Positions 16,057 to 53,032 of a stretch of DNA of 64,000 nucleotides are shown in pieces (the first letter of the stretch is position 1; every line of letters starts with the position of its first letter). The notes beneath the pieces were generated by a model that made no database searches, was not told where the DNA came from, and saw nothing but the letters and a program-made list of their open reading frames with translations. The translations under genes and the position numbers were made by a program. Source of the DNA: Alphaproteobacteria bacterium. Its GTDB lineage: Bacteria; Pseudomonadota; Alphaproteobacteria; Sphingomonadales; Sphingomonadaceae. The stretch covers positions 1-64,000 of the forward strand of contig JAFAZW010000035.1 in NCBI GenBank assembly GCA_019239415.1. Direction: 5' to 3'.

Positions 16057-16151
16057 TAGGCGATGTCCTATTTTCGGCGGTTAAGCGGGAAGAATAGGAA
16101 ATCTCCTATCTGGAAAAAGCGCTTGACAGCGTCACGCTCACATGGCACAAT
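16057..16151 (+). promoter_or_regulatory. Strong promoter with paired palindromes, twin of the GTA promoter
   Basis: In order: TAGGC-GATG-TCCTA (16057-16070), AATAGGA-AATC-TCCTAT (16093-16109), TTGACA (16123-16128), a 17-bp spacer, then CACAAT (16146-16151). The two palindromes are 38 bp apart centre to centre, and the second lies 21.5 bp before the -35. Both distances are identical in the promoter of the GTA cluster at 52938-53032. The first transcribed bases (TCATCGTCGAAAAGTG) are conserved too. The palindromes are probably activator or repressor sites. Confidence 0.75.
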
Positions 16152-16203
16152 CCTGTCATCGTCGAAAAGTGTGTCCGCAGGGCAGCTGCCCGCCGCCCGC
16201 CGC

Positions 16204-16296
16204 GTGAAGGGGGACGCCTGCTTCCTCAGGAGGTTGCGGGGGCGCGTGGGGAGGCTGGTGAAGCGTAAGCCGGTGGCGAGGGAGAACGATGGCTGA
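16204..16296 (+). CDS. Possible 30-aa basic leader ORF
   Basis: GTG-started ORF of 30 codons, rich in Arg/Lys (ends VKRKPVARENDG), the first frame after the strong promoter. Its end overlaps ATG 16289. Support is only position and the KPV motif that recurs at the end of the 40-aa ORF at 16309. It may be a leader peptide or chance. Confidence 0.25.
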   Translation: MKGDACFLRRLRGRVGRLVKRKPVARENDG

Positions 16297-16402
16297 CCTG
16301 GTGTTGCGATGGCTGCCCGCGCAACTCCCGTTAGGCGTACGGCTCCTCCTGTTGGCGGTAATTTTGCCAGGCGCAGGCGTCGCTTCTGGGGCATCAGGCT
16401 GA
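16289..16402 (+). CDS. Possible 37-aa hydrophobic peptide ORF
   Basis: ATG 16289 has a good Shine-Dalgarno sequence (GAGGGAGA). The product has one membrane span (GVRLLLLAVILPGAGVA) and a short N-terminal amphipathic part. It overlaps the 40-aa ORF at 16309 in another frame, so either only one is real or both are made. The good ribosome site favours this one, and the chain of overlaps favours the other. Confidence 0.35.
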   Translation: MADLVLRWLPAQLPLGVRLLLLAVILPGAGVASGASG

Positions 16403-16431
16403 GGTACAAGCCGGTGGAGAAGCCGGAGTGA
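16309..16431 (+). CDS. Tiny basic ORF (40 aa), first member of GTGA-linked chain
   Basis: ATG 16309, 40 aa, with an Arg-rich middle (FARRRRRFWGIRLRYK) and the end KPVEKPE. Its stop shares the GTGA with the next ORF. A second, decayed copy of the same end (QPVEQPE followed by a mutated overlap) lies at about 16818-16840. That recurrence is the main evidence that this frame is translated. No family is recognised. Confidence 0.4.
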   Translation: MAARATPVRRTAPPVGGNFARRRRRFWGIRLRYKPVEKPE

Positions 16432-16547
16432 CGCACGATCAGATGGCCTATGCGGCGTTGTTCGGGCTCGTGTGCCTTGTAGCCGTGCTGGTGGACATAC
16501 GGCAGCAGCTCAGGCGGATCGCGGACGCGGTGGGGAAGCCGGAGTGA
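16428..16547 (+). CDS. Tiny single-span membrane protein (39 aa)
   Basis: GTG start at 16428 overlapping the previous stop (GTGA). MTHDQMAYAALFGLVCLVAV gives one hydrophobic helix, then a charged amphipathic tail DIRQQLRRIADAVGKPE. It overlaps the next ORF by another GTGA. The size and topology resemble small phage-type membrane peptides (holin-like or regulatory), but this is inference. Confidence 0.5.
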   Translation: MTHDQMAYAALFGLVCLVAVLVDIRQQLRRIADAVGKPE

Positions 16548-16687
16548 GATGGATCGAACTGGAGCCCGAACCGCCTGAAGGAGGCTTGAAGATCAGCGCC
16601 AACCGGCTCGGTTGCATAACCCTGTGCGCCGCCTTGGCCCTCCTAGCGGGGCTTGCCTCTTACGGGGTCTACCGCCTCATTTACTGA
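16544..16687 (+). CDS. Tiny single-span membrane protein (47 aa)
   Basis: GTG 16544 overlaps the stop of the 39-aa ORF. It has a polar, Pro/Glu-rich N-terminus (MRWIELEPEPPEGGLK) followed by one C-terminal membrane helix (ITLCAALALLAGLASYGVY). It is the last member of the coupled chain under the 16057-16151 promoter. I do not recognise a family. Translation coupling and shared topology with its neighbour argue for a real operon of membrane micropeptides. Confidence 0.5.
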   Translation: MRWIELEPEPPEGGLKISANRLGCITLCAALALLAGLASYGVYRLIY

Positions 16688-16712
16688 GTGGGTTTGCAAA
16701 CTCCACGATCGC

Positions 16713-16742
16713 GACAATCCTGTCATCGTCGAAAAGTGCGTC
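16713..16742 (+). promoter_or_regulatory. Partial third copy of the promoter/leader
   Basis: GACAATCCTGTCATCGTCGA followed by AAAGTGCGTCC repeats the -10 and first transcribed bases of the promoters at 16057 and 52938, but the -35 and both palindromes are missing. It is probably the left end of a decayed duplication whose ORF (ATG 16751) also ends in a QPVEQPE motif. Confidence 0.55.
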
Positions 16743-16836
16743 CCGGGCTCATGTACGTCGGGTCCGCCCCCGACGATCCGGCGCGGCAGAGGGGCGCGGG
16801 AAAGCGGGTGCCGCACCAGCCGGTGGAGCAGCCCGA

Positions 16837-17255
16837 GCGAGGATCGCCTTCGCCCTGTTCGCCCTCGCCCTGGGCGGCGCGCCGGCGATGGCCGATCCGC
16901 CGCTGCCGCGTCCGGATTACCTCGCTTCCCTCCCCGAGCGGCAATGGGCTTTCGCCGAGAAGCTCTGGGAGGAGCGGCGGCCTTGCACGCCGCAGCTTTG
17001 CGAGGCCGGCTACCGCGGTGGCGCCCTGCTTGTGTCGGTCGTCAGGGGCCTGAACTACTTTCAGGCCGTCGCCGGGGTGAAAGGCTGCGCGACGGTCAGC
17101 GAGGAGCGTGTGCGGGCAGACCATCCTGCCCGAGCGACCGCGCAACGGCGCCTCGCCATCGTGTCCAAGCTCGCGGTCGGCGTGGCCGCGGCCGTGCGAT
17201 CCGCGTGCGAGGTGCGCGCGCATCCCCGGAGACGGCGCGGCTGCGGGCGCTGTGA
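16837..17255 (+). pseudogene. Decayed secreted-protein gene with lost start codon
   Basis: The frame from 16837 reads a near-perfect signal peptide (RIAFALFALALGGAPAMA) and a mature protein with LPERQWAFAEKLWEERRPC and QLCEAGYRGG. The codon where the start should be is GCG. GTG there would recreate a GTGA overlap with the upstream ORF ending QPVEQPE, exactly as in the neighbouring chain, so one T-to-C change removed a stop and a start together. Near 17215 a GCGCGCGC run appears to have gained two bases. Without them the protein would end SPETARLRAL. As it stands, the frame runs on into a repeat at 17343. Confidence 0.4.
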
Positions 17256-17321
17256 CCGGGGCGGGGCTGTCAAGGCCATGCTCGCCACGAAGACGGCCGA
17301 CGGCAAAGCGCGGTGGGCAGT

Positions 17322-17631
17322 TCAGTGCACTGTCACCGTATGAGATACCTACTACGGTGACAGTGCATTCAATTCGCCGGGACCGCGGCCGCGCGCGGCT
17401 GGCGGCGTAGCGGCCGGGCGCAGTTAGGTGCACTGTCGAGGACTGGCGCGGCTGGGAGCGGGGGGTCGCGGGAGAGTTCAGTGCACTGTCACCGTATGAG
17501 GTGCTTATTACGGTGACAGTGCATTTAATTCGCCGGGGGCGATCAGGTGCACTGTCAGCGGAATTGCTGGGCCGCCGGGAGTTAAGTGCACTGTCACCGT
17601 ATGAGATGCTTACTACGGTGACAGTGCACTC
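17322..17631. repeat. Three full and two half copies of AGTGCACTGTCACCG palindrome
   Basis: Full copies are at 17322-17371, 17477-17530 and 17582-17631. Each has AGTGCACTGTCACCGTA, about 12 variable bases, then TACGGTGACAGTGCA(C/T)T. Half copies (GGTGCACTGTC) are at 17427 and 17546. Further copies are at 20289-20343, 20579-20634 and 48394-48450. Arms of 15-17 bases would form strong hairpins. No gene lies between 17256 and 17860. Confidence 0.9.
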
Positions 17632-17860
17632 AGCATGCCCAAGCATGATCGTTTCCTCGGGATCGCGTCACGGCTACCGCCATGCTGAACGTCTTTCAGC
17701 GCCCAGGGTGGACACGGCAGAGCGGGTGGAGACCTGGACCGTGAAACAAGTTCAGGGTGACGGCAGCGGCGCGGCCGCGCCGGTGCTTCATCCTGAGGCG
17801 ATCGAGCTCGAGGCGAGTGAAAGTACATGTCCCCTGGCGGGTGGAAGTGAGGTCCCTCCA
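17632..17860. other. Gap without a recognisable gene
   Basis: About 230 bp between the last palindrome and the hydrolase stop. It contains one GAAAGTACATGTCCCC arm (17820-17835) of the GGGACA repeat family and nothing else I can support. Confidence 0.5.
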
Positions 17861-18928
17861 TCAGCGGTCGAATGTCTTCAGGAAGCGGACGAGGCCGGTC
17901 ATGTAGGCGTCCTGGTCGTCGTACATCGCCATGTGGCTGCCGTTGGGGGCGAGGAGGAACTCGCCCTTCGGAAGGCGGCGTGCCATCCCCGCCATCCAGT
18001 TCGGGTCCATCGTGTCGTGGGTGGCGCCGATCACCAGCGTCGGGACGGCGATGCGGTGGAGGTCGGCCGAGCGGTCCCAACGTTCGAGGACGCCGCTCGC
18101 GGCCAGCTCGCTCGGGCCCTGCATCAGCGTGTAGACGTGGGCGTTGACGCGGTTCATTGAGCGCAGCACCGGCTCGGGCCAGGCGGCGAACGGCCGGCGC
18201 AGGAAATGCCGTTCGTAATGCATCGGGATCAACGTGCCCATGTAGCGCGGGTCGTCGGTCTTGCGCGCCGCCTCCAGCGCTTTGACGAGGGCGAGCTGCT
18301 TCGGGTCCATCGCCGGCATCAGCACCGTCGCGGCGTAGCGGTTGTAGGCGGGCACCGAGTCCATCATGTTCGAGATCACCAGGCATTTGAGGTTGGCCTG
18401 GTATTTGAGGGCATATTCGATCGCGAGCAGGCCGCCCCAGCTGTGGCCGAACAGGCAGAAGTTCGACGCGTCGAGGCCGAGCGCCGTCCTGACCTGCTCG
18501 ACCTCCTCGACGAAGCGCGCCGTCTGCCACAGCCGGTCGTCGTCGGGGCGGTCGGAGAGCCCGGCGCCGAGCTGGTCGTAGTAGAAATATTCGATGCCGG
18601 CGGCGGGGAGGAAGCTGTCCATCGCCTCGAGATAATCGTGGCCCATGGCGGGGCCGCCGTGGAGGAGCAGGACCTTGAGGCGCGGGTTGTTGCCGACGCG
18701 CCTGGTCCAGACGTGGAACCGGCCGGCAGGGGTGGCGACCTCGACCATCCTGGCGCCGCCGCTCCACGCGTCGGGACGGCCGGCGCGGCTGTAATAGTCG
18801 GGCGCAGGCCCGGCGGCGGCGGCGGCGGGGGCGCCCGCGAGGAGCGGCACCAGCAGGAGGAGGGCGGCGAGGGCGGAGCCTGTCTTCTGGTGCAGGGAAG
18901 CTGCGGCGCGAACGGCAGGTCTGCTCAT
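17861..18928 (-). CDS. Secreted proline-iminopeptidase-like alpha/beta hydrolase
   Basis: A 355-aa alpha/beta-hydrolase resembling proline iminopeptidases: oxyanion region LLLHGGPAMGHDYLE, nucleophile elbow GHSWGG, acid in GATHDTMDPNW and histidine in PNGSHMAMYDD. A long N-terminal signal (AALLLLVPLLAGAPAAAAA) sends it to the periplasm. It probably trims N-terminal residues from short peptides. ATG 18928 overlaps the stop of the upstream secreted protein gene (ATGA), so the two form an operon. Confidence 0.85.
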   Translation of the reverse strand: MSRPAVRAAASLHQKTGSALAALLLLVPLLAGAPAAAAAGPAPDYYSRAGRPDAWSGGARMVEVATPAGRFHVWTRRVGNNPRLKVLLLHGGPAMGHDYLEAMDSFLPAAGIEYFYYDQLGAGLSDRPDDDRLWQTARFVEEVEQVRTALGLDASNFCLFGHSWGGLLAIEYALKYQANLKCLVISNMMDSVPAYNRYAATVLMPAMDPKQLALVKALEAARKTDDPRYMGTLIPMHYERHFLRRPFAAWPEPVLRSMNRVNAHVYTLMQGPSELAASGVLERWDRSADLHRIAVPTLVIGATHDTMDPNWMAGMARRLPKGEFLLAPNGSHMAMYDDQDAYMTGLVRFLKTFDR

Positions 18929-19713
18929 GGCGGAGTCTCCGGAGGGAAGGGGTCGCATTCGAACATCGGCCCGCTGTAGCGGATCTCGATCCTGCGGACG
19001 CGCATCGGGTCGGCGGGCTCGCTGGCGACCATGACGGCCCAGGCGCTGCACCGCCCCGGTCCGGTGAAGACGGTCGTCCCGATGCACTCCAGCCTCGCGG
19101 GGCAATGCATGCCGCGGGGGTGAAGCGACCCGGTGCTCGTCGCCTCGATCAGCGATGCCGCTTCCTTCGCGGTGGGGCAGTAGGCGATCCTGCCGCAGAC
19201 GATGTGGACGATCGGTGAGGCCGGCTTGCTCAGCGCCTGCACCGCGACGCCGAGGCTCCTCACGGCGCGGTCGGCCTCGTCGATCGAGCCCGCCTCGAAC
19301 CCGGCGCCGGTCTGGGCCGGGTCGGCGCAGGCCCTGTCGAGGGCGGCGCCCGAGAGATCCCACCGCGGTTTGCGGTCGAGGCCGAGGACGACGTGGTAGA
19401 GCGAGGTCGCGGCGACGGACCGGATGCGCGCCGGTTCCCCGACGCGCGGCGCGGCAGCCCCGCGGGAGGTCGCGACCTCGATATCGACGAGATTGCTCGT
19501 GCACAGGCCGGCATGGTCGGTGGCGCGCGGCCGCGTCCACAGCGACAGCGCGCCGCCGCCGTCGGGCTCGTCCCGGTAGTAGCTGCGCTCCGCCTCGAGG
19601 AGCAGCTGCCTCAGGACGGGCTCGGCGAGGTCCCGCGCTTTCGGGTCGACCGCCTGGGCCGCGGCGGGCGCGGCGATCGCGGCCATGCAGGACAGCGCGA
19701 GCGCGTGCTTCAT
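18925..19713 (-). CDS. Secreted protein of unknown function
   Basis: A 262-aa protein with a signal peptide cleaved after SCMAAIAAPAAAQA. The mature part has six or more cysteines (LCTSN, ACADPAQ, IVCGRIAYCPT, HCPARLECIG, FECDPFPP), suggesting disulfides in the periplasm. No family is recognised. Its stop overlaps the start of the peptidase gene downstream, so the two products may work in the same compartment. Confidence 0.7.
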   Translation of the reverse strand: MKHALALSCMAAIAAPAAAQAVDPKARDLAEPVLRQLLLEAERSYYRDEPDGGGALSLWTRPRATDHAGLCTSNLVDIEVATSRGAAAPRVGEPARIRSVAATSLYHVVLGLDRKPRWDLSGAALDRACADPAQTGAGFEAGSIDEADRAVRSLGVAVQALSKPASPIVHIVCGRIAYCPTAKEAASLIEATSTGSLHPRGMHCPARLECIGTTVFTGPGRCSAWAVMVASEPADPMRVRRIEIRYSGPMFECDPFPPETPP

Positions 19714-19845
19714 TGCCCCTCCTGCCGCTCAGGATGGCGTGGCGCCAGTGGAGCGTCAATCGGGGCGCGGGCGCGCGGACGCTATTGTCACCGACCCCGT
19801 GCGCTGGTGCGGTCCGTCGACGGCGCGCGCGGTCGGCGAGGGTCC

Positions 19846-20121
19846 CTACAGGAGCAGGTCCCGCTCCTCGGGGTGCGTGTCGATATAATGGCGGACGAAG
19901 GGACAGGTGGCGACGACCCTGAGGCCCTGGCGGCGGACGTCGGCGAGGGCGGCGGCGATCAGGCGCTTGCCGATGCCGCGGCCTCCGAGGGCCGCGGGCA
20001 CCTCGGTGTGGTAGAAGGTGAGGTGGTCGTCGTGGCGGCGGTAGGCGGCGATCGCCGTGGCACCGTCGACGGTCAGCTCATACTGGCCGCGTTCCGGATT
20101 GTCGGTGACTTCGCCGTCCAT
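19846..20121 (-). CDS. Small GNAT-family N-acetyltransferase
   Basis: A 91-aa protein of the short YjdJ-like acetyltransferase group. The acetyl-CoA loop is PAALGGRGIGKRLIAAAL, then VVATCPFVRHYIDTHPEE. ATG 20121 is chosen because the family begins there; an upstream start would add 50 Arg-rich residues with no family match. The substrate is unknown. It is a single gene with repeats upstream. Confidence 0.8.
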   Translation of the reverse strand: MDGEVTDNPERGQYELTVDGATAIAAYRRHDDHLTFYHTEVPAALGGRGIGKRLIAAALADVRRQGLRVVATCPFVRHYIDTHPEERDLLL

Positions 20122-20288
20122 CGCCGGGCTCCCTGCCGTGGCGCCGCAACCGTTCCGCCGAGCGCGTCGCAGCCGTCTCGCGCGCTCCCGCGCCAAACGC
20201 AAGACCAGGGCCGCGATGGGGTCGGCCCGGACCGGAGGCGGCCGGTCCGCCGTGCGCTGAAGTCGGCGCATTGGGGGCGCGGTGGGCG

Positions 20289-20697
20289 ATTCAGTGCACT
20301 GTCACCGTATGACGTGCCTGTTACGGTGACAGTGCACTGAATTCGTCGGACGGGCGGCCGCCGCCGCGGCTTGGGGCGTAGCGTGGCGGGCAATTGAGTG
20401 CACTGTCACCGGAATTCCGGGGATTCTCGTCATGCCGGACTTGATCCGGCATCCACCTTCTTCTCTCGGTGCAGTAGGGAAGGTGGACCCCGGATCAAGT
20501 CCGGGGTGACGTTCCTGTTCCACTCACCCCTCCCAACGAAGGCCTCACGCCGCGGCCTTATCGGCTGGATGACCTGGCAATTAAGTGCACTGTCACCGTA
20601 TGACGTACCTATTACGGTGACAGTGCACTCAATTCGCCGGGTCGTTGGCCGCCGGGACTGGAGCGTCGCGGGGAATTGAGTGCACTGTCACCGGATT
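20289..20697. repeat. Repeat cluster: two full AGTGCACTG palindromes, two halves, one CCCCGGACTT palindrome
   Basis: Full AGTGCACTGTCACCG palindromes are at 20289-20343 and 20579-20634, with half copies at 20392-20415 and 20672-20697. A CCGGACTTGATCCGG palindrome (20428-20512) sits between them. The 585-bp gap between the GNAT and the monooxygenase holds no gene. Confidence 0.88.
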
Positions 20698-20706
20698 ATG
20701 GTGGCG

Positions 20707-21747
20707 TCACGCCGCCGCCGCCTTCATCGGCTGGATGACCTGGGCGGCGAAGCGGTCCATTTCCTCGGCCTGGGGGCTGCACTGGAGGAGGAGGAGGTCG
20801 AGGCCGGCCGCTTCATATTCCTCGATGCGCGCGCGGACCTGCTCGGGCGTGCCGACGAAGTTGGGGCGGAGGCCGCGGTTGGAGACGGAATATTCCTGGA
20901 GCTTCAGCTCGCGCTCGAGCTCGGTGCCGGACAGCCACTGGTCGAAATTGTCGAAGCCCCTGGGCGGGCTGGGCGGGAGCGCGGTGATGCGGGCGAGCTC
21001 GCGCTTCGCCTCGGCCTCGGAGTCGCGGACGATGACGTAGCCGGCCATGCCGTAGCGCATCGGGCCCTTGCCGGCCTTGTCGCGGCGGGCGCTCATGTCG
21101 GCGATCTTGGGGGCGATCGCCTCGACCGGGTCGCCGTGCATGACATAGGCGTCGCATTGCCCGGCGATCATCGTCTTGGCCGCCTCGCTCTCGCCGCCGG
21201 CATAGATGGTGGGGCGCGGCTTCGCGACGGGCTTGGGCTCGCAGATGGCGTTGTCGAGGCGGTAGCGCCGGCCCTCGTAGGTGAAGCGCTTGTGGGTCCA
21301 GAGGCCGTCGACGACGTCGAGCCACTCGCTGGTGCGGGCGTAGCGGTCGTCGTGCTGGTCGAAGTCGAGGCCGTATTGCGTCGCCTCGTCGGCCCACCAG
21401 GAGGAGACGACGTTGAGGGCGAGGCGGCCGCCGCTGATCCGGTCGATGTTCGCCGCCTGCTTGGCGAAGAGGGCAGGCTGGTGGAAGTTGGGGCGGACGG
21501 CGACCATCAGCTCGAGGCTGTTCGTGACCGCGGCGAGGGCCGCGGCGGTCGACCAGGCGTCGAGCGCCGGTTCCTCGACGCCCTTGATGTCGTTCAGGTT
21601 CAGCTCGGCGATGAGGCTGAGGTCCCAGCCCGTCTCCTCGGCGCGTTGCGTGAGGCGGCGGACATAGTCCCAGCTCGCCTCCATGCCTTCGTCCTGGAGG
21701 TTGCGAAGCCAGCCGCCGAAAACGGGCATCCAGTAACCGAAACGCAT
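20707..21747 (-). CDS. LLM-class flavin-dependent monooxygenase
   Basis: A 346-aa bacterial luciferase-like (TIM barrel) oxidoreductase that would use reduced FMN and oxygen. Starts MRFGYWMPVFGGWLRN. It contains VRPNFHQPALFAKQAANIDRIS, then GGRLALNVVSSWW, the alkanesulfonate/dimethylsulfone monooxygenase type of core, and a C-terminal FVGTPEQVRARIEEY. One base separates its ATG from the stop of the upstream ATP-grasp gene. The substrate is unknown. The relation to sulfonate or pyrimidine monooxygenases is at family level only, and no flavin reductase is nearby. Confidence 0.85.
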   Translation of the reverse strand: MRFGYWMPVFGGWLRNLQDEGMEASWDYVRRLTQRAEETGWDLSLIAELNLNDIKGVEEPALDAWSTAAALAAVTNSLELMVAVRPNFHQPALFAKQAANIDRISGGRLALNVVSSWWADEATQYGLDFDQHDDRYARTSEWLDVVDGLWTHKRFTYEGRRYRLDNAICEPKPVAKPRPTIYAGGESEAAKTMIAGQCDAYVMHGDPVEAIAPKIADMSARRDKAGKGPMRYGMAGYVIVRDSEAEAKRELARITALPPSPPRGFDNFDQWLSGTELERELKLQEYSVSNRGLRPNFVGTPEQVRARIEEYEAAGLDLLLLQCSPQAEEMDRFAAQVIQPMKAAAA

Positions 21748-21748
21748 C

Positions 21749-22663: not shown

Positions 22664-22743
22664 GGGAAAGCCTGTACGTCGTGGACGGGCGCCATGTGTG
22701 GGCTGGCGGGGCGGATTGGAAGAGCCGGGCACAGCCTATTTGG

Positions 22744-22792
22744 CTGTCCCCGTTACGGTCGTGGTGACGGGGACGGTCAATAGACTGTCCCC
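22744..22792. repeat. Short inverted repeat of the GGGGACAG family
   Basis: CTGTCCCCGTTACGGTC followed by GTGACGGGGACGG and a further ACTGTCCCCT form overlapping hairpins between the divergent ATP-grasp and hisN genes. Confidence 0.6.
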
Positions 22793-22840
22793 TCCGTCCG
22801 GCGCTTGACCTTTGCGGTGGCGGGCCCTCAGGAGGGGGCG

Positions 22841-39981: not shown

Positions 39982-40545
39982 TCAGAGCGGGCGGAGGAGG
40001 CGAGTCGCGACGGCGAGCCAGGGCGGGTCGGCGAGCACCGTCTGACGGCCACCGGCGCCGAGCGGCAGGAGATGGAGCTTGCCCTCCTCGCGACCGATCA
40101 GGCGGGCGAAGAGGAAGCGGCCGGCGGGCCGGGGAACGAGCACGTCGCGGTTCATCGCCTGCCCGAACTCCGCCGGCGGGAGCCGGCGGCACCAGAGCTC
40201 GTCGCCGCTGCGATAATCGCCGATGCCCGCGGCGACGGCGACGGCGACCATGCCCGGCTCCGGCCGCGGCGGCACAACCACGCTGGCGCGACGCGGCGCG
40301 TGGGCGCCGTCATGCTCGAGCAGGGCCGCGACCGGGACGTCCTCGCGGTCGGGCAGCTTGACGAGATCGCCCGCCTCGACGCCGAGCGCGCCGGCGATGC
40401 GGTTCAGCCAGCCGACCGAGACGGTGCGGGTCCCCGTCTCGAGGCGGCCGATCGTCTGCGGCGTGGTCGGCGGATCGCAGCGGTCGGCGACGTCCTGCAG
40501 GGTCATCTTCTTCGCGCGGCGGACCTCGCGGATGCGGGTGATCAT
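39982..40545 (-). CDS. XRE-family regulator with S24-like C-terminus
   Basis: 187 aa. The N-terminal Cro/CI helix-turn-helix is IREVRRAKKMTLQDVADRCD and TTPQTIGRLETGTRTVSVG. The C-terminal half has GDYRSGDELWCRRLPPAEFG and RFLFARLIGREEGKLHLLPL, like the beta-barrel of LexA/CI-type peptidase domains, although a catalytic Ser/Lys pair is not obvious. It is divergent from the DUF6456 gene, which it might regulate. Confidence 0.75.
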   Translation of the reverse strand: MITRIREVRRAKKMTLQDVADRCDPPTTPQTIGRLETGTRTVSVGWLNRIAGALGVEAGDLVKLPDREDVPVAALLEHDGAHAPRRASVVVPPRPEPGMVAVAVAAGIGDYRSGDELWCRRLPPAEFGQAMNRDVLVPRPAGRFLFARLIGREEGKLHLLPLGAGGRQTVLADPPWLAVATRLLRPL

Positions 40546-40645
40546 GGCGGCCTCCCCAACCAGTGCGGTTATTTCACTTTCCTACACCCTCTCCGGAATG
40601 GCAAGAGAGGATTGAGGTGATTCGCGCTATGTTCCGGAGGATGGG

Positions 40646-41155
40646 ATGAGACCAGGCAAGGTGAGGAAGAACCGGCTGCTCGCGGAGCGGCCGCTGCCGC
40701 AGGACGGGTCGGGCCGCGGGCGACGTCCGGGGCGGCTGCGGCCGGCGCGGTCGGTGACGGTCAACCTCGCCGATTCGCCGCTCGGCTGGCTGCACGATCG
40801 CGGCCACGTCACCGCGCGCCAGTTCGCGGCGGGCGAGCAGCTCCGCCTCGACTGGGAGAAGGCCGCGCTGGCGCCGGTGGTGACAATGCAGTGGGACGCC
40901 CCGCCGCTCGGCAAGCAGACCCGGCTTGCCCCCGAGGAGGCGACGCCGACGATGCGCCAGGTCGCCGCCCGCCGCCGGTTCGACGCCGCCACGGCGGCGG
41001 TGGGGCCGGGGCTGCGCGACATCCTCTGGCGCGTCGTCTGCGCCGGCGAGGGGATGCGCGACGCGGAGACGGCGCTCGGCTGGCCGGTGCGGGCGGGCAA
41101 GCTCGTGCTGGGCATGGCGCTGGACCGGCTCGCCGATCATTATCGCATGCGGTGA
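40646..41155 (+). CDS. DUF6456 protein
   Basis: 169 aa. A basic N-terminus (RPGKVRKNRLLAERPLPQDG) is followed by the DUF6456 core: NLADSPLGWLHDRGHVTARQ, FAAGEQLRLDWEKA, RRRFDAATAAVGPGLRDILW, and a helix-turn-helix-like end (GMRDAETALGWPVRAGKLVL). It is probably DNA-binding. From memory, DUF6456-type domains occur in alphaproteobacterial activators related to GTA control, so it deserves comparison with GafA/GafY. That link is unverified. Confidence 0.7.
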   Translation: MRPGKVRKNRLLAERPLPQDGSGRGRRPGRLRPARSVTVNLADSPLGWLHDRGHVTARQFAAGEQLRLDWEKAALAPVVTMQWDAPPLGKQTRLAPEEATPTMRQVAARRRFDAATAAVGPGLRDILWRVVCAGEGMRDAETALGWPVRAGKLVLGMALDRLADHYRMR

Positions 41156-46612: not shown

Positions 46613-46623
46613 GGAGGGAGCGG

Positions 46624-46995
46624 ATGGGCAAGAAGAAGGACAAGAGAGCCAAGGGCGACAAGGGCGCGAAGGAGATTGCCGGCGTCAAGGTGCCCAAGGG
46701 GCTGCGCAAGGCGGGCAAGGCGGCGCGCAAGCTGGCCGAGCAGCCGGTGGTCAGCGAGGCGGTGGCGGCGGCCCTCCTCGCCGCGGCGGCGGCGCTGCGC
46801 GATCCGCCGGCGACGAAGAAGGGCGCCAAGGCGGCCGGCGACGCCGCGGGCGAGGCCGCGGCCGGCGCCGGCAAGCAGGCGAGCGTGCTCGGCGATGCCC
46901 TCAAGTCGATCGCGATCGACGTGGCGCGGCGCACCGTCGAGGCGTGGAGCGAGAGCGCCAAGCCGCCGAAGAAGGGCGGCGGCGGCGGGCGCTGA
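46624..46995 (+). CDS. Lys/Ala-rich basic protein, unknown
   Basis: A 123-aa protein. The N-terminus is very Lys-rich (MGKKKDKRAKGDKGAKE), the middle is a helical Ala-rich segment (PVVSEAVAAALLAAAAALRD), and the end is Gly/Lys-rich. The amino-acid bias resembles histone-H1-like DNA-binding proteins, but no family is recognised. It begins 11 bp after the cupredoxin gene with GAGGGAGC upstream. Confidence 0.55.
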   Translation: MGKKKDKRAKGDKGAKEIAGVKVPKGLRKAGKAARKLAEQPVVSEAVAAALLAAAAALRDPPATKKGAKAAGDAAGEAAAGAGKQASVLGDALKSIAIDVARRTVEAWSESAKPPKKGGGGGR

Positions 46996-48393
46996 CGCGC
47001 CGTCGTTTTACCCCCGTTATCCTCGTTATCCACAGACGGATTCCGCTTTTCCGAATCGGTCAGGCGTGACAGCTTTCGGGTGTGGACGGAGGCGAAGACC
47101 CGCAAGGGCCGGAGCCGAAGACCACCCGCCGAGGCGGACGAGGATGCGGTCGCTCCCCAAGGAAGGCCGCTTTCCCGGAAGCCGAAAGCGAGGGCGCTTC
47201 GAACGGCGCCGGTCCGACGCGCAAGCCGAGGGTCGATGTGGTTCGAGACGCCGGCCGAGCCGCAGCGGGATCCGCGAGGATCGTGACGAGGTGACGCCGC
47301 ATGCCGGCCGCGAAAGGGATGGGAATCGCCCCGGACCTGGAGAGGCCGACAGGGTCCCGGCCGAAGCTTTCACGAGCTTCGGCCAGGGCTCACCCTCCGA
47401 GGCGAGCGAAGGGCCCGCGCCCCGAGCGAGCGGCGGAGGTGGAGACGGACAGGCTTCGGCCCGACCGCCTCCGAACGGATCTGCGGCGAGGATTTCGGTT
47501 CTCCTCGAGGGTCCGGCGGTGCGAGGGATCGGGGTTCGCCTCGATCGCGAGGCCGCGAAACGGGTTCCGGCGAAGGCGCCTTGCGCCGACGGCAGGATCC
47601 GGCGGTTGGGAGGATCGGAGCTCGCTGCGATCGCCAGGCCGCGAAACGGGTCGCTGCGGAGGCTTCGGTCTTCCTGCGGTCCGGCGGTTCAAGGGATCGG
47701 GGTTCGCTTCGATCGCCAGGCCGCGAAACGGGTCGGAACGGTCGTGCGGGTTCGCCCCTGCGATCTGTCGGTCCGGCGATCGGGCAGCGGGGTTCGCTTC
47801 GATGCCGGGATCGCGAAGGCGCAGCGTTGCGGCGGGCTTGCTCGCCGAGCGGCGCCAGGCGGCGAGGGTCGGACGCTTCGGCGTCGGATCCGGACCGACC
47901 GAGGGGGACGGCGGGGCCGCAAGGCCTCCGGCGGAACCCGGGGACGGCGAAAGGCGAGGGCTTGCCCTCGACGCGGCCGGCCTCTTCGAGGCGAGGCGTC
48001 CTGCGCGAGCAGGCCGGCACGCTTCGGAAACGGGACACGGGCAATGAGGCCTCGGCCTTGCCCCGACCCGCAGGGAACCGCCCAGGCCTCACGGCCTGGA
48101 CGGGACCCACGGGGACCGGAGACGGCATCCGCCGTCCCGCGGTGCCCACCCACCCAGCGGGTGATGGCCCCGCCGAGGCGCGGGCGATCGTGAGCCTGGG
48201 ACATTGGGGGCTGGCGGCGACGTCAGCCCCCATTTTGGTTTTGGGGCGAAGGGATCGTTCGCCCAGGCGCTCGGCGCCCGGCGCCGATCCCGGTGACAGT
48301 GCACGTAGTCGGGCGGGGTCGGCAGCGGCCCCGACCGCACAGGCTGGCGGTGCGAGAGGCGCGCCGCACGCGCGCTGATCAGGGCACCGCCAC
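46996..48393. other. 1.4-kb region without a recognisable gene
   Basis: All six frames have long open stretches, but none gives a protein that looks real (Arg/Pro/Gly-rich, no start with a ribosome site, no motif). Contents are a perfect DnaA-box sequence TTATCCACA at 47026-47034, the imperfect tandem repeats at 47511-47860, and a CGGTGACAGTGCACG half palindrome at 48289-48305. It may be a decayed locus or a non-coding RNA region. Confidence 0.55.
47511..47860. repeat. Four imperfect tandem repeats of 82-92 bp
   Basis: Units begin with TCCGGCGGT (or TCCGGCGAT) at 47512, 47598, 47680 and 47772. Each continues with a GGGATCGGGGTTCGC-like stretch and TCGATCGCCAGGCCGCGAAA. The spacing is not a constant multiple of three, so a repeated protein is unlikely. 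Confidence 0.65.
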
Positions 48394-48590
48394 CGAATAA
48401 GTGCACTGTCACCGTATCTGTTTCGATTGCGGTGACAGTGCACTTATTCAGGGGGCGGACAGGCGGAACGCGGCGCAGCGTCCCGGGGCGGCCGGCTCAG
48501 CGCGCGATAAGGGCACTTTCACCGAATTCAGTGCACTGTCACCGGATCTGATTACGTGCACTGTCGCCGGATCATATCTGTCCTGTCGCC
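48394..48590. repeat. AGTGCACTGTCACCG palindromes: one full, degenerate halves
   Basis: The full copy at 48394-48450 has ATAAGTGCACTGTCACCG and CGGTGACAGTGCACTTAT arms. At 48523-48590 three degenerate arms follow (GTGCACTGTCACCGGATC, GTGCACTGTCGCCGGATC, CTGTCGCCGGATC), a decaying array. Confidence 0.85.
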
Positions 48591-48593
48591 GGA

Positions 48594-48794
48594 TCAGAGG
48601 CGCACCGACTGGAGGACCTGGAGGATGTCGAGGGCGTTGCCGCCGGGGCTCATCACGGCCTGGGCCTGATTGTCGGCGATGGCCTTTTCGTAGACGCGCC
48701 TGCGCAGGCCGGGATCGCTCTTGTCGAGCTCCTCGAGCAGCGCGTCGACGAGAACCCAGCCCGCCATCCCGATCGCTTCCGCCGTCCGCGCCAT
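48594..48794 (-). CDS. Small helical protein of unknown function
   Basis: A 66-aa protein from ATG 48794 with AGG five bases upstream; a GTG at 48812 would add six residues. It is predicted helical (GWVLVDALLEELDKSDPGLR, ALDILQVLQSV) and soluble. No family is recognised. It is flanked by palindromic repeats on both sides. Confidence 0.5.
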   Translation of the reverse strand: MARTAEAIGMAGWVLVDALLEELDKSDPGLRRRVYEKAIADNQAQAVMSPGGNALDILQVLQSVRL

Positions 48795-48944
48795 GTCCTT
48801 GCTCCCAAACACTGAGTGACTGTCACTCGACCGTTCGCCGGGGCCCTAGCGGCACGGGCCGGGCGGGGGAAGGGCTGCGCGCGCCCTGGGGCGGCGGTTG
48901 ATTCGGCGCCGCAATGTGCGATGATGCGGTCGGGAGGGCGGCAC

Positions 48945-49415
48945 ATGTTTCTGCGCGGCGACAAGGCGGCGGGGGCGGGAGCGTCCGGCGCGGAATTCTC
49001 GTTCATCGGCCCCGAGGTGGTCGTCACCGGCAACATCGCCACCGAGGGCCGGCTGCACGTCGACGGCCGCATCGTCGGCGACGTGCGCTGCGGCGTGCTG
49101 AGCCAGGGCGAGAGCGGCGCGGTGATCGGCAACATCGTCGCCGGCGAGGCGCGGCTCGCGGGCCTCGTCGACGGCGCGGTCGAGGCCGGCGCGCTGTCGC
49201 TCGAGGGAAGCGCGCGGGTGACCGGCGACATCCTCTACGAAAGCGTGGGCATCGCCCGCGGCGCCGAGGTCGAGGGCCGCCTCAAGCGCCGCCGCTCGGC
49301 CGATGACGGCTCGGCGGCGGCGAAGAGCGAGGCGACGGCGGCGAAGCCGGCGCGCACGGCGAAGCCGCAGGTCGCGGAGCTGTTCACCCCGCCGGAAGCG
49401 GAGGCGGCGGAGTAG
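48945..49415 (+). CDS. Bactofilin-family cytoskeletal protein
   Basis: 156 aa. The central beta-helix has the bactofilin periodic pattern: VTGNIATEGRLHVDGRIVGD, VIGNIVAGEARLAGLVDGAV, and SLEGSARVTGDILYESVGIA. Flexible Ala/Lys-rich ends flank it. Bactofilins polymerise on the inner membrane and help cell shape or stalk/envelope synthesis. ATG 48945 is chosen for its GGGAGGGCGG site; ATGs at 48921 and 48924 are upstream alternatives. No M23 peptidase partner is next to it. Confidence 0.88.
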   Translation: MFLRGDKAAGAGASGAEFSFIGPEVVVTGNIATEGRLHVDGRIVGDVRCGVLSQGESGAVIGNIVAGEARLAGLVDGAVEAGALSLEGSARVTGDILYESVGIARGAEVEGRLKRRRSADDGSAAAKSEATAAKPARTAKPQVAELFTPPEAEAAE

Positions 49416-49418
49416 GGA

Positions 49419-49548
49419 AGGGACAGTCACTTTCACCCGCGGAGGGCTGAGGGGACAGTCACTTTCACCCGCGGCGGTGCCGAGTCTCGACCGGCCATGT
49501 GGAAAGTGACTGTCCCCGCTCCAACCGCCGTGGAAAGCGACTGTCCCT
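49419..49548. repeat. Nested REPIN-like palindrome, GGGGACAGTCAC family
   Basis: GGGACAGTCACTTTCACCCG occurs twice (49419, 49452) and is answered by GGAAAGTGACTGTCCCC (49501) and GGAAAGCGACTGTCCC (49532). The order is arm1-arm2-loop-arm2'-arm1', 130 bp. Confidence 0.9.
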
Positions 49549-49610
49549 AGCGCGGCGTCAACCATCGGCGGCAACGCCGCGCTAAGCGGCGCGGGCCGAT
49601 CCTGTCGGCC

Positions 49611-50147
49611 ATGCGCGGGGGCCTGGCGAGGATCGGACGGATCGCGGCGGCGGCGGGGCTGGCGCTGGCGGCGCCGCTGCTGGCCGGCGGGACCGGGCGC
49701 CTCGACCATCTCGACGCGCGGCTGCTCGCGGCCCACAATCGCGAGCGGGACGCCCTCGGCCTCGCGCCGCTCGCCTGGGACGCGGGGCTGGCGCGCGACG
49801 CGGCGGCCTGGGCGGCCGAGCTCGCGCGGCGCGGCGAGATCGAGCATGAGGAGGAGGTCGGCGACGCCGACACGTCCGAAGGCGAAAATCTGTGGCAGGG
49901 GACGACGGGCGGCTTCGCCCCCGAGGCGATGGTCGGCCTGTGGATCGCCGAGAAGAAGGATTTCCGGCCGGGGCCGATCCCGGCGGTGAGCCGCACCGGC
50001 CGCTTCGAGGATGTCGGCCACTACACCCAATTGGTGTGGCGCGCCACCGACCGCGTCGGCTGCGCGCTGGCGCGGGGCGCGCGCGACGAGATGCTGGTCT
50101 GCCGCTACCGCACCGCCGGCAACGTCGAGGGCGAGCGGCCCTTCTGA
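49611..50147 (+). CDS. Secreted CAP-domain (SCP/PR-1-like) protein
   Basis: 178 aa. Signal sequence RIAAAAGLALAAPLLAGG. The CAP fold shows LLAAHNRERDALGLAPLAWD, a histidine in EIEHEEEVGD, GENLW, and VGHYTQLVWRATDRVGCALA with C/Y near the end (VCRYRTAGN). CAP proteins bind lipids or act at the envelope; the bacterial role is mostly unknown. Confidence 0.88.
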   Translation: MRGGLARIGRIAAAAGLALAAPLLAGGTGRLDHLDARLLAAHNRERDALGLAPLAWDAGLARDAAAWAAELARRGEIEHEEEVGDADTSEGENLWQGTTGGFAPEAMVGLWIAEKKDFRPGPIPAVSRTGRFEDVGHYTQLVWRATDRVGCALARGARDEMLVCRYRTAGNVEGERPF

Positions 50148-50263
50148 CCGCCGGCACGGATTTGCGACAACTTGTTCATGCGCGGCTCATCGCCTTTCGT
50201 GCTAAGAGCCGCGCGGGGATGACGCGAGGGTGCGCACACCCTCGTCCATGGGAGATTATCGAG

Positions 50264-50701
50264 ATGCTCAAAGGCCTTGGCGCCGGCGCTGCCGCCGCGC
50301 TCTTCACGCTCGCCGCGCCCGCGGCCGCGCAACCCATGGCGCAGTCCGCTCCGGCTCCGGCGCAGGCGCCGACTCCCCCGACCATCGAGCGCGCCCAGGG
50401 CGAGGAGATGATCAAGGGGATGTTCGCGCAGGTCGACGCCAATCACGACGGCGTCGCCGACGCCGCCGAGCAGGCCGCGGTGCTCGAGCAGGTGAAGGCG
50501 CAGGGCGCGCCCGAGACGGCGCTCGCCGCCATCCGCCGCATCTTCGCCGAAGGCACCGGACCGGACGGCAAGCTGACCCTCGCCTCGTTCACCAAGGCGC
50601 GGATGACCGCCTTCGACAAGGCCGACACCAACCACGACGGCAAGCTCGACCCCGCCGAGCAGGAAGCGGCGCGCGTCGCCGCCGAGAAGCCCAAATCCTA
50701 A
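50264..50701 (+). CDS. Exported EF-hand calcium-binding protein
   Basis: 145 aa. Signal peptide (AAALFTLAAPAAAQ), a Pro/Ala-rich linker, then EF-hand loops DANHDGVADAAE (near residue 63) and DTNHDGKLDPAE (near residue 125), both with the Asp-rich calcium pattern. ATG 50264 has GGAGATTATCGAG upstream. It is followed by a second EF-hand gene of the same architecture, probably by duplication. Confidence 0.85.
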   Translation: MLKGLGAGAAAALFTLAAPAAAQPMAQSAPAPAQAPTPPTIERAQGEEMIKGMFAQVDANHDGVADAAEQAAVLEQVKAQGAPETALAAIRRIFAEGTGPDGKLTLASFTKARMTAFDKADTNHDGKLDPAEQEAARVAAEKPKS

Positions 50702-50743
50702 GAGCGCCCGCGCGGCGCCGCGACCCGATGAGGAGTTGAGACG

Positions 50744-51205
50744 ATGAAGATCCTTTTGCTCGCCGCGACGACCCTGCTCGCCGCCGCCCCCGCCGCCGCC
50801 CAGCCGCCGCAGGCCCCCCCGGCTCCGCCACAGGCGGCGCCGGCGCCGCAAGGCGGGCCCGAGGCGCGCGGCCCGCAGGGCGACATCACCCGCGCCCAGG
50901 CGGAGCAGAATGTCCGTGCGCAGCTCGGCCGGCTCGACGCCGACCATGACGGCGTCATCACCGACAAGGAGATCGAGAAGATCATCGACACGATCGCCAC
51001 CGCCGGCGGCCCCGCCCAGATCGGCGACCGGCTGCACCAGCTGATGAAGGAGTTCGGCCATGACGGCCGGATGGCGATCGACGACGTCGTCAAGGCCCGC
51101 CTCGCCCAGTTCGACGCCGCCGACACCAATCATGACGGCAAGCTCGACCAGGCCGAGCGGCAGGCGGCGATGGCGGCGATGCGCGGCAACGCGCCGCGGG
51201 GGTGA
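50744..51205 (+). CDS. Exported EF-hand calcium-binding protein
   Basis: 153 aa. Signal peptide MKILLLAATTLLAAAPAAAQ, a Pro-rich linker, then EF loops DADHDGVITDKE and DTNHDGKLDQAE, with a third degenerate one around EFGHDGRMAIDD. AGGAGTTGAG precedes ATG 50744. It is paralogous to the gene before it and likely senses or buffers calcium in the periplasm. Confidence 0.85.
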   Translation: MKILLLAATTLLAAAPAAAQPPQAPPAPPQAAPAPQGGPEARGPQGDITRAQAEQNVRAQLGRLDADHDGVITDKEIEKIIDTIATAGGPAQIGDRLHQLMKEFGHDGRMAIDDVVKARLAQFDAADTNHDGKLDQAERQAAMAAMRGNAPRG

Positions 51206-51277
51206 GGCGAATCGGGGACATGTACTCGTCCGTGTCCCCTTGCTTGCGCTGCGGGCGGTGGCGACTATCTCGCAATC

Positions 51278-51625
51278 ATGATGCGGGGGCTCATCCTTAT
51301 CGCCGCCTTGCTGCTGGCGGGCGCCGCGCCGCCGCCGGCTTCGGTCGGCGGGGTGTGGGATCTCACGTGGAAGAATGCGCACGGCGAGACGCGCGGCGCC
51401 TGGCTGCTGATGCGCCAGCAGGGACGGCACGTCGACGCCGAGCTGCACGGGCGGCACAACGTCAACGCGTCGGGGCTCGTCGAGGGCAGCCGGGTCGAGC
51501 TCAGGGGCTCGCGGCTGCTCATCCCCTACCGGATCGTCGCGCGGGTCGCGGGCGACCGGATCGAGGGCGGAGTCAGCGCGCCAGGGTTCGAGCGCCGCTT
51601 CACGGGGCAGCGGCGGCGGGGGTAA
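51278..51625 (+). CDS. Small secreted protein, beta-rich, unknown
   Basis: 115 aa. Signal peptide MMRGLILIAALLLAGAA. The mature part is beta-strand-rich (VGGVWDLTWKNAHGETRGAW, IPYRIVARVAGDRIEGGV), resembling small lipocalin-like or avidin-like strands, but no family is assigned. A GGGGACATGTACTCG repeat fragment lies just upstream (51216-51241). Confidence 0.6.
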   Translation: MMRGLILIAALLLAGAAPPPASVGGVWDLTWKNAHGETRGAWLLMRQQGRHVDAELHGRHNVNASGLVEGSRVELRGSRLLIPYRIVARVAGDRIEGGVSAPGFERRFTGQRRRG

Positions 51626-51661
51626 CGGCGGAGTCGCACGGCGCGGCCTCCATGTCATGCC

Positions 51662-51748
51662 CCGTCATCCCGGCGGAAGCCGGGATCCCCTGTCGGAAAG
51701 ACGCCGGAACGGTCTCCTGGAGATCCCGGCTTTCGCCGGGATGACGGG
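51662..51748. repeat. Palindromic repeat, CATCCCGGCG family
   Basis: CCGTCATCCCGGCGGAAGCC and CGGCTTTCGCCGGGATGACG arms around an 87-bp unit, between a secreted protein gene and the channel gene. Confidence 0.88.
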
Positions 51749-51811
51749 TTCCCTTGCCTTGGTCGCCGGGACTGCGGATAGTCGTCGGCTCGGGCGACAA
51801 GGGGCCGGGGA

Positions 51812-52426
51812 ATGAGCGCGACGACGAAGACCGACCACACGCTCGAGCGGCTCGTCTTCTTCTCCGACGCGGTGTTCGCCATCGCCATCACCTTGCTGGT
51901 GCTCGAGATCAAGGTGCCGGTGCTGCCCAAGGGCTCGCCCGACGCGCTCTACTGGCAGGCGCTCCTCGACCTCATTCCGAGCTTCATGGGCTATGTGCTG
52001 AGCTTCGCGGTGATCGGCGTGTTCTGGATCGGCCACCACCGCGCCTTCGCGATGGCGGGGCGCTATTCGGGCCGCATCCTCGGCTGGAACATGGGCCTGC
52101 TCTGCGTCATCGCCTTCATGCCGTTCGTCACCGCGTTCGACGCCCACAATCTCAACCAGCACGTGCCGGGCATGGTCTATTGCGGGACCCTGCTCGTCGC
52201 GGGGCTGCTCAACGCGGCGGTGGTGCACGTCGCGACGGGCGCGGCGATGGTGGCGCCGGAAACGGAGACCGCGCGGATCCGCTACGCACGGCGGCGCAGC
52301 CTCAGCGTCATCCTCGGCGCGGCGAGCGCGCTCGTCTTCGCCTATTTCGTGCCGCGCTACGGCCAGCTCGGCCTGGCGACGATCGGCCTGTGGCGCCGCG
52401 TGCTGACCCGGTTGATGACGGCGTAG
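51812..52426 (+). CDS. TMEM175-family (DUF1211) channel-like membrane protein
   Basis: 204 aa with six membrane helices. The first helix carries LERLVFFSDAVFAIAITLLV, the R/FSD signature of bacterial TMEM175 potassium channels (six-helix, tetrameric). FWIGHHRAFAMAGRYSGRIL follows. It is probably a cation leak channel. The start is ATG 51812. Confidence 0.87.
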   Translation: MSATTKTDHTLERLVFFSDAVFAIAITLLVLEIKVPVLPKGSPDALYWQALLDLIPSFMGYVLSFAVIGVFWIGHHRAFAMAGRYSGRILGWNMGLLCVIAFMPFVTAFDAHNLNQHVPGMVYCGTLLVAGLLNAAVVHVATGAAMVAPETETARIRYARRRSLSVILGAASALVFAYFVPRYGQLGLATIGLWRRVLTRLMTA

Positions 52427-52490
52427 GGACACGTACTTTCAGATGCGCGGTGCGAGGGTTTCGCACCCCGCGGGTGAAAGTATGTGTCCC
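52426..52490. repeat. Palindromic repeat, GGGACA variant, between convergent genes
   Basis: GGGACACGTACTTTCA and TGAAAGTATGTGTCCC arms with GCGAGGGTTTCGC at the tip. It exactly bridges the channel stop and the stop of the minus-strand gene, so it may end both transcripts. Confidence 0.8.
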
Positions 52491-52762
52491 TAACGGGCGA
52501 TCGCGTTGGCGGCGAGATTGGCGTCGAGGCGGCCGGGGTCGATCCTGGCGGCAGCGCCCGCCAGCTTGTCGAGCGAGGCGGCAGCGCCTTCGGGCACCGG
52601 CTGCGGCGTCGTGGCGGCGCGGCGCTGCGCCTCGGCCGTCGCGACGGCGGCGAGGACAAAAGCGGGCTCGACCTGCGCCTGCGCCTTGTGGTGCGGCGTC
52701 AAGGCGGGGACGAGGGCGAGGGCGAGCGCGGCCGGCGGAACGAACATCAGGAGCTTCTTCAT
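52490..52762 (-). CDS. Small exported protein, unknown
   Basis: 90 aa. MKKLLMFVPPAALALALVPA signal, then HHKAQAQVEPAFVLAAVATA. The mature part is Ala-rich and helical (GAAASLDKLAGAAARIDPGR). No family is recognised. It is convergent with the channel gene. Confidence 0.5.
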   Translation of the reverse strand: MKKLLMFVPPAALALALVPALTPHHKAQAQVEPAFVLAAVATAEAQRRAATTPQPVPEGAAASLDKLAGAAARIDPGRLDANLAANAIAR

Positions 52763-52937
52763 CGCCGGCCCAACGAACGGGCGGCGGCCAAGTGCCGGAA
52801 AAAATGCGACGACATTCGCCTGCCGTCCGATCGCGACCGCCGGCGGCGCGACTCGCGAGTCGCATGGGGCCGGCGAATCGGCCCCGAATCGGGTGAAAAG
52901 CCGTGCTCCGGAAAAATTTGAATCGCGGTTTTTTCGG

Positions 52938-53032
52938 TAGGAGATTTCCTATTTTTCCCGGTTCAGAGCCGAAAATAGGAATTCTCCTATTTGGAAAAAG
53001 CGCTTGACAGCGTCACGCTCGAAGGGTACAAA
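52938..53032 (+). promoter_or_regulatory. GTA cluster promoter with two TAGGA-N4-TCCTA palindromes
   Basis: TAGGA-GATT-TCCTA (52938-52951) and AATAGGA-ATTC-TCCTATT (52974-52991), then TTGACA (53004-53009), 17 bp, TACAAA (53027-53032). The initially transcribed TCATCGTCGAGAAGTG is shared with the promoter at 16057-16151, as are all distances. It is the likely control point of the GTA head operon; the palindromes are candidate sites for a GafA/GafY-like activator or a repressor. Confidence 0.8.

Follow-up and report, generated by a model that had tools for sequence, protein, structure and literature searches.

A gene transfer agent promoter type in sphingomonads and a candidate repressor layer added to it in one genome

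Promoter cassettes and the head operon

The window analysed here comprises positions 1–64,000 of contig JAFAZW010000035.1, part of a sphingomonad genome of 3.49 Mb in 103 contigs (G000, hereafter the source genome). It contains two copies of a promoter cassette, one at about 53 kb in front of a gene transfer agent (GTA) head operon and the other at about 16 kb in front of several micro-open reading frames (micro-ORFs). Each cassette consists of a pair of palindromes, a −35 element, a spacer holding a further palindrome, a −10 element and a leader. The original prediction placed the same parts in the same order and at the same distances at 16057–16151 and 52938–53032, and this was borne out. 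A search of the source genome revealed a third copy, at C24:11564–11660.

All cassette elements in the window lie on the forward strand. At 53 kb the palindrome pair, identified by sequence and by matrix match, spans 52938–52989 and is formed by TAGGAGATTTCCTA (52938–52951) and TAGGAATTCTCCTA (52976–52989); an activator-like element, CCTATTTGG (52986–52994), overlaps the second palindrome. The promoter (53004–53032) comprises a −35 TTGACA at 53004, the spacer palindrome AGCGTCACGCT (53009–53019) and a −10 TACAAA (53027–53032), and is followed by the leader TCATCGTCGAGAAGTG (53037–53052) and by an intrinsic terminator with an 11-bp stem and a T run (53088–53117), which stands between the promoter and the first gene. 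At 16 kb the pair (16057–16108), identified in the same way, is formed by TAGGCGATGTCCTA (16057–16070) and TAGGAAATCTCCTA (16095–16108), and the activator-like CC-N5-GG element CCTATCTGG (16105–16113) overlaps the right half-site of the second palindrome. The promoter (16123–16151) has TTGACA at 16123, AGCGTCACGCT at 16128–16138 and a −10 CACAAT at 16146–16151, and the leader TCATCGTCGAAAAGTG occupies 16156–16171. In both cassettes the palindromes are 38 bp apart, TTGACA lies 21.5 bp from the centre of the second palindrome, the −35/−10 spacer is 17 bp long, and TCATCGTCGARAAGTG follows the −10, at 16156 and 53037.

Two details of the original description needed adjustment. TAGGA-N4-TCCTA is exact at three of the four palindromes in the window, while that at 16057 reads TAGGC-N4-TCCTA, with one mismatch. 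The −10 elements are present where they had been placed, but ‘consensus-like’ was a generous term, since by eye each matches TATAAT at four of six positions. A promoter scan listed the 16 kb promoter; the 53 kb promoter was absent from its list.

The match between the cassettes in parts, order and spacing is far beyond chance. By BLAST the 53 kb cassette is 80% identical to the 16 kb cassette over 132 bp (E 3.3e-27) and 86% identical to the third copy (C24:11556–11678, E 6.2e-36). Palindromes with at most one mismatch occur in the window at exactly the four cassette sites, against a mean of 0.13 per 64 kb in 60 random Markov-1 sequences, none of which held a pair 36–40 bp apart; with two mismatches allowed, six were observed and 4.2 expected. 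In the source genome the exact palindrome occurs five times and the reversed pattern is absent; four of the five are in the three cassettes and the fifth is on contig C72, adjoining an S24 repressor gene. It is the pairs and the full architecture that are significant; single palindromes were rejected as evidence, the exact form occurring 27 times and the reversed pattern 53 times in the 26 genomes of the genus. For that reason the lone palindromes of one relative (G309), whose neighbours are respectively recA, a PBP-like gene and, about 1 kb downstream, a terminase gene, were treated as possibly due to chance; the first is an exact operator-like palindrome directly upstream of a gene read by eye as recA (L080:6607, G309:C18) and may likewise be chance.

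Similarity between the cassettes tracks the elements and does not extend beyond about −100 to +60 relative to the −35. Across the three copies, identity is 25/28 in the palindromes, 6/6 in the −35, 14/17 in the spacer and 16/18 in the leader, compared with 11/24 between the palindromes. The difference between the elements and the sequence that separates the palindromes argues for selection on the elements.

The claim that the 53 kb cassette heads a GTA head operon was confirmed. On the forward strand behind it lie a gp1-like small terminase gene (53148–53783; phrog_4044, E 3.1e-9), the terminase large subunit gene (53716–55254), an HK97-type portal gene (56773–57927), whose product has its sole match in the genome to itself, and an HK97-type major capsid gene (60603–61772). 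This is the RcGTA-type order of terminase, HK97 portal and HK97 capsid, with other genes between terminase and portal. The genes in that interval (55254–56773) look unrelated to GTAs.

The core promoter in related genomes

The core pattern TTGACANCGNNACGCT was searched in 60 related genomes and found at 29 sites in 18 of them; the reversed pattern was not found. Three sites in order-level genomes (L124, L142 and L125) were dropped by eye because they have no −10 or leader and look like coding sequence, leaving 26 promoter-like sites in 16 genomes. A search of the genus with the whole cassette likewise found the core half alone in other species. The spacer palindrome is generally of the AGCGTNACGCT type, reading AGCGTCACGCT in both window cassettes and NCGNNACGCT in the rest.

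Most of these promoters (21/26) precede a GTA-type terminase or portal gene, 16 lying within 2.5 kb of a terminase, which gives 16 terminases behind a core promoter across the genomes searched, and five within 2.5 kb of a portal. Head operons behind the portal-type promoters (G229, G304, G299, G303 and G312) have no terminase in front; unlike these five relatives, the window has no exact core match before its portal gene. The remaining five promoters precede neither gene within 2.5 kb. Two are at the micro-ORF loci at 16 kb and on C24; at G304:C293 the contig ends; in G266 a transposase-like ORF (by eye) follows and a terminase lies 4.2 kb on; and in G002, from another genus, the promoter precedes not a terminase but a DUF2793 gene (L159:2799–3254, G002:C1; E 4.7e-28). 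DUF2793 occurs in GTA tail proteins, and this may be an accessory GTA locus. Taken together, the neighbouring genes make it highly probable that the core promoter is linked to GTA genes.

Two further features accompany the core. CC-N5-GG stands 8–12 nt upstream of the −35 in 23/26 promoters, compared with 58/1664 control offsets, and a terminator of −15 kcal/mol or better is found within 160 nt in 19/26, compared with 59/520 random windows and 25/260 shuffled sequences. The succession of promoter, spacer palindrome, leader and terminator is probably an antitermination layout of the GafZ/Q type.

Terminase genes themselves are dispersed in this genus. Matches to the window terminase were found at one to eight places (counted by hand) in each of the 15 terminase-bearing genomes among the 26, with five in the source genome, five in G309, eight in G311 and three in G310, which has no portal match. 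Those of the source genome are C86:53716 (in the window), C76:12592, C83:66390, C43:23312 and C57:33981; the four outside the window are solitary operons amid unrelated-looking genes, three of them having a gp1-like gene and two standing behind a core promoter. The portal has one strong match in 12/26 genomes of the genus and a partial match in two more. The GTA in this genus looks modular: in 10/15 genomes a single head operon is accompanied by two to eight terminase operons at dispersed positions, several of them under the same, antitermination-type core promoter. Some terminase places in other genomes may be prophage. In a tree of terminase large subunits that of the window falls inside the genus clade on a long branch, and the tree was not used as evidence. 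Directly after one terminase of G309 lies a gene resembling, by eye, one for a SIR2-type protein (L078:3867–4985, G309:C15).

A GafZ-like gene and its divergent neighbour

A GafZ-like gene, encoding a DUF6456 protein (PF20057), lies on the forward strand at 40646–41155 and is the only one found in the source genome. DUF6456 scores above cut-off in 15/26 genomes of the genus, the same 15 that have a GTA-type terminase, and in 0/11 of the others; the co-occurrence would have p about 1e-7 for independent genomes, an assumption that does not hold. Divergent from gafZ, on the reverse strand at 39982–40545, is a gene for a 187-residue XRE-family helix-turn-helix (HTH) protein (HTH_3, E 6.8e-9). An XRE gene of about this length is divergent from gafZ in 15/15 loci, its product being 75–83% identical in the 14 relatives.

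Between the two genes lies AACCAGTGCGGTT (40558–40570), of the form AACC-N5-GGTT, which is found in this position in 15/15 loci (14 by regular expression and one by eye). Since this motif matches the element at the GTA promoters, the XRE protein is a candidate for a GafY-like role. Of the binding proteins put forward by the original prediction, GafA has a counterpart in this DUF6456 gene of the GafZ/GafA type; a GafY of the DnaA type was not found in the source genome, where PF08299 matches one place, a 711-residue open frame taken by inference for DnaA, a search by which a diverged GafY could be missed. None of the XRE, GafZ and small HTH proteins has a meaningful PDB match, and a single-sequence structure model of the XRE protein was useless (pLDDT 42.8).

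The palindrome as probable operator of an S24 switch

In the family the palindromes have a different setting. A palindrome with TTGACA at 10–18 nt was found in one of 298 family genomes, the source genome, where it occurs at the three cassettes. Tandem TAGG-N6-CCTA pairs are present in 25 other genomes of the 298, between an S24 gene and one encoding a product of about 60 residues. Such places lie beside an S24 gene in 24/25 cases (BLAST, 45–64% identity) and beside the small, Cro-like gene in 25/25; in the exception, L021, the small HTH gene is present and there is no S24 BLAST hit. The S24 gene is divergent from the tiny Cro-like gene, and the sites lie mostly within about 55 bp before its start codon, as a tandem array. 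Its product matches Peptidase_S24 (1.8e-14) and the repressor family phrog_4 (8.1e-36), with an N-terminal HTH recognised by eye from the alignment. The small protein has no Pfam or PHROGs match, ‘Cro-like’ describing its size and place. In other genera (L005–L029, for example L009:1501–1553) the S24/Cro-like region frequently contains a set of three operator-like sites with a spacing of about 20 bp, reminiscent of lambda OR.

An operator matrix was built from 65 sites, all outside the source genome and picked by their outer TAGG..CCTA letters. In the window its four highest scores fall on the four cassette sites (25.07, 25.07, 24.84 and 15.09, the next score being 5.37), and it places both C24 sites at the top of their locus. 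This ranking, together with the tandem sites at S24 genes, makes it very likely that the palindrome is the operator of the S24/Cro-like switch.

The proposal that TAGGA-N4-TCCTA is a general GTA operator was accordingly rejected. The palindrome belongs to the S24/Cro-like switch in relatives, it is present in genomes without GTA-type terminases, and none of the other 23 core promoters examined has it. The best match among these is a weak one at G303:C40 (5.79), at the same position, where TAGGATTTACCAGA keeps only the half-sites. With 73% identity over 115 bp (E 8e-11), this locus is also the closest cassette copy outside the source genome, perhaps a cassette in decay or one only partly built. 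A GTDB-wide scan for the pair with TTGAC, which may leave out records of the source genome, gave six hits, five in Parabeggiatoa, Thiomargarita and Thiotrichaceae and one in a metagenome-assembled genome of Bacillota, with none in a sphingomonad; all six were rejected as real cassettes and read as chance. What stands of the predicted GTA regulon is the promoter type common to both loci, to which a third locus was added; loci sharing this promoter type likely form a regulon.

A possible link to DNA damage

The S24 protein is predicted to be cleavable. Residues for a LexA-type Ala-Gly bond and a Ser-Lys dyad are present, with AG kept in 38/39 aligned homologs, S in 39/39 and K in 38/39. The motif GTTC-N7-GTTC, the alphaproteobacterial LexA box (PMC8565304), lies upstream of 17/21 full-length S24 loci of the genus, that of the source genome included, compared with 37/1840 control windows. 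The window has no exact LexA box; the box sits in the S24/Cro-like intergenic region and not at the GTA promoters. In other genera the box was found in 0/24 S24 loci, a biased contrast, since loci L005–L029 were chosen by their outer operator sites. Under the same caveat, the genus of the window has the LexA box, farther upstream, in place of the three-site array.

Given the LexA box and the kept cleavage residues, damage would be expected to lift repression of the GTA genes. Such direct damage induction is a tentative prediction, with somewhat less than even odds of being right.

A proposed mechanism and its alternatives

The following scheme takes binding, repression, antitermination and SOS induction, all of them inferred, from what the sequence provides in element identity, spacing, conservation, co-occurrence and matrix match. 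The CC-N5-GG element, whose centre lies about 14 nt upstream of TTGACA, would be bound by a regulator, for which the product of the XRE gene next to gafZ is the likeliest candidate. Transcription would start after the −10, and GafZ would load at the spacer palindrome and carry RNA polymerase through the terminator 3′ of the leader, so that the terminase and head genes are transcribed. In the source genome, the chromosomal S24 repressor would bind the TAGGA-N4-TCCTA pair at three promoters. The right half-site of site 2 provides the CC of the activator element in all three cassettes, and the S24 protein and the activator should for this reason exclude each other. The S24 gene faces the Cro-like gene across operators and a LexA box; damage could thus lift repression and release the GTA genes. 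Overall, a GTA promoter of the phage-late type with a lineage-specific repressor layer appears the best explanation, and one held with some confidence. It is a more tentative suggestion that, in one lineage, GTA late promoters have come under the control of a lambda-like SOS switch through operators placed over the activator site, so that the particles and the two loci of membrane micro-ORFs would be released directly by damage as prophages are, with sister species having GafZ-type control only.

Several observations weigh against this explanation. The position of the operators, upstream of the −35, would suit an activator too, and the selection of matrix sites by their TAGG..CCTA letters inflates the scores of such sites. 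S24 genes occur in 19/26 genomes of the genus, in 15/15 with GTA-type terminases and in 4/11 without, and the switch is therefore not dedicated to GTAs. Within the source genome, the core promoters on C43 and C57 are without TAGGA operators and without a clear CC-N5-GG, and the terminases on C76 and C83 are without a core match; the regulon is therefore split. No terminator was found within 160 nt of the 16 kb and C24 promoters, which makes antitermination less clear there.

Among the alternatives, it is possible, if rather unlikely, that the 53 kb cassette alone is functional, those at 16 kb and on C24 being either remnants of terminase operons since lost or promoter copies without a role. 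Core promoters in relatives precede a terminase or portal in 18/21 cases, terminase operons standing alone are frequent in the genus, the micro-ORFs are without homologs in the fetched DNA, and the missing terminators fit this too. However, all promoter elements are intact at the three sites despite divergence in the 24 bp that separate the palindromes, neither locus holds a gp1 remnant, and both have micro-ORFs with transmembrane (TM)-like segments. The DUF2793 locus of G002 also indicates that accessory loci under the core may exist.

It is less probable that the palindromes are activator sites, through which the S24 protein, the Cro-like protein or another protein recruits polymerase to the GTA promoters. 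Class I activators work at such positions upstream of the −35; the sites lie upstream of this element and not over it, and some core GTA promoters of the source genome have no CC-N5-GG. Against recruitment stand the layout at the S24 gene, where a tandem array just before the start is that of an autorepressor, the C-terminal domain of the S24 protein, which is of the CI/LexA type, the full consensus of the −35, and the overlap of site 2 with an element that is already activator-like. Still less likely is that binding at the GTA promoters falls chiefly to the Cro-like protein and not to the S24 repressor: its gene accompanies the same operators at every one of the 25 places, but its putative fold has no match in Pfam or PHROGs and no meaningful one in PDB. 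That the cassettes, at about 130 bp and similar to one another, represent a dispersed repeat or an assembly artefact was already disfavoured and is highly improbable, since their similarity follows the elements and the core recurs at GTA genes elsewhere.

Relation to known systems

Most of what is known about GTA regulation comes from Rhodobacter and Caulobacter. The Caulobacter crescentus GTA promoter is under the control of GafY, GafZ and IHF; Tran and Le showed that GafZ requires a palindrome in the −35/−10 interval and lets transcription pass a terminator (PMC11150451). The promoter described here resembles it in having an activator site upstream of the −35, a palindrome in the spacer, a terminator and a DUF6456 gene. 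It differs in its −35 (TTGACA, whereas that of Caulobacter, AATCAT, is poor), in its terminator, which lies before rather than after the first gene, and in its regulators, with an XRE gene beside gafZ and no DnaA-type GafY found. A further difference from Caulobacter is that probable S24 operators lie on GTA promoters themselves.

A second Caulobacter protein, RogA, is a LexA-like GTA repressor which reportedly binds at the gafYZ promoter, a site of two GGAA-N4-TTCC repeats, and is without key cleavage residues (PMC9632790). Compared by description, the S24 protein shares with RogA an HTH, an S24-like domain, a paired inverted-repeat operator and a putative role in GTA control. Its probable operator is TAGGA-N4-TCCTA, which occurs both next to its own gene and on GTA promoters, and its cleavage residues are kept. 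No S24 operator was found near 40558–40646, the gafZ promoter region, among the top eight matrix hits of the window.

Phage lambda has a cleavable CI facing Cro across tandem operators, and a Q-dependent late unit of promoter, leader and terminator with a loading site in the spacer; a comparison with Q is also made in PMC11150451. Both arrangements have likenesses here, in a cleavable-type repressor facing a small gene across tandem operators and in the succession of promoter, leader and terminator. The differences are that the switch is chromosomal, that a LexA box lies within it and that the repressor would act directly on promoters of the late type. The effect of LexA on RcGTA appears to be indirect, via CckA (Kuchinski 2016, as cited in PMC9638019 and PMC6363796); SOS touching GTA output would be common to both, with a direct operator route proposed here. 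Homologs of gafA have already been reported across GTA-containing alphaproteobacterial orders (PMC9765227). In the open-licence literature nothing was found on sphingomonad GTA promoters, on S24 operators at GTA promoters or on multi-terminase GTAs. The system appears to be an already known type of GTA promoter in altered form, with a putative added repressor layer found in the source genome alone among 298 family genomes.

The core pattern offers a definition of the sphingomonad GTA promoter that can be tested in any strain, and suggests that sphingomonads use the same antitermination logic in a different order. The cassettes offer a case of regulatory capture, in which a damage-responsive repressor switch would have been placed on GTA promoters. 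If true, GTA release would be tied directly to DNA damage, which bears on whether GTAs serve to supply repair templates or to spread a lineage.

Micro-ORF loci

The 16 kb cassette is followed on the forward strand by three micro-ORFs, each with one TM-like segment: m1 (16289–16402, 37 residues), m2 (16428–16547, 39 residues, GTG start, with a coding-like GC content at third codon positions) and m3 (16544–16687, 47 residues, GTG start chosen by hand). A TM-like segment is present in 5/5 short ORFs picked at the 16 kb and C24 loci, compared with 5/147 window ORFs of 35–70 residues, a count favoured by the picking and by the chosen starts of m3 and c24b, and whose control may include some of the same ORFs. 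The two loci have no homology to each other or to other loci in the fetched DNA. They were rejected as terminase remnants, there being no gp1 similarity at E 0.01 and no terminase match at either. PHROGs gave nothing for m2 and m3, and Pfam nothing for m3 or most of c24a; m2 matched DUF2448 at 0.011, below the cut-off of that family. A lysis or accessory function for the two loci is possible but a guess. Lysis in Caulobacter proceeds via LypABC, without a known holin-endolysin pair (PMC13236601).

The recurrence of a −10/leader fragment near 16713, pointed out in the original prediction, is real: 16714–16743, on the forward strand, matches 16147–16176 at 97% over 30 nt, without a TTGACA or other −35. 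Downstream of the locus, at 17319–17642, a 63-nt repeat occurs three times with an inverted repeat of 17–20 nt (AGTGCACTGTCACCGTA). Within 16397–16840, a 35-nt repeat with 71–77% identity ends in GCCGGAGTGA or a similar sequence where one micro-ORF stops and the next starts, a possible sign of tandem duplication.

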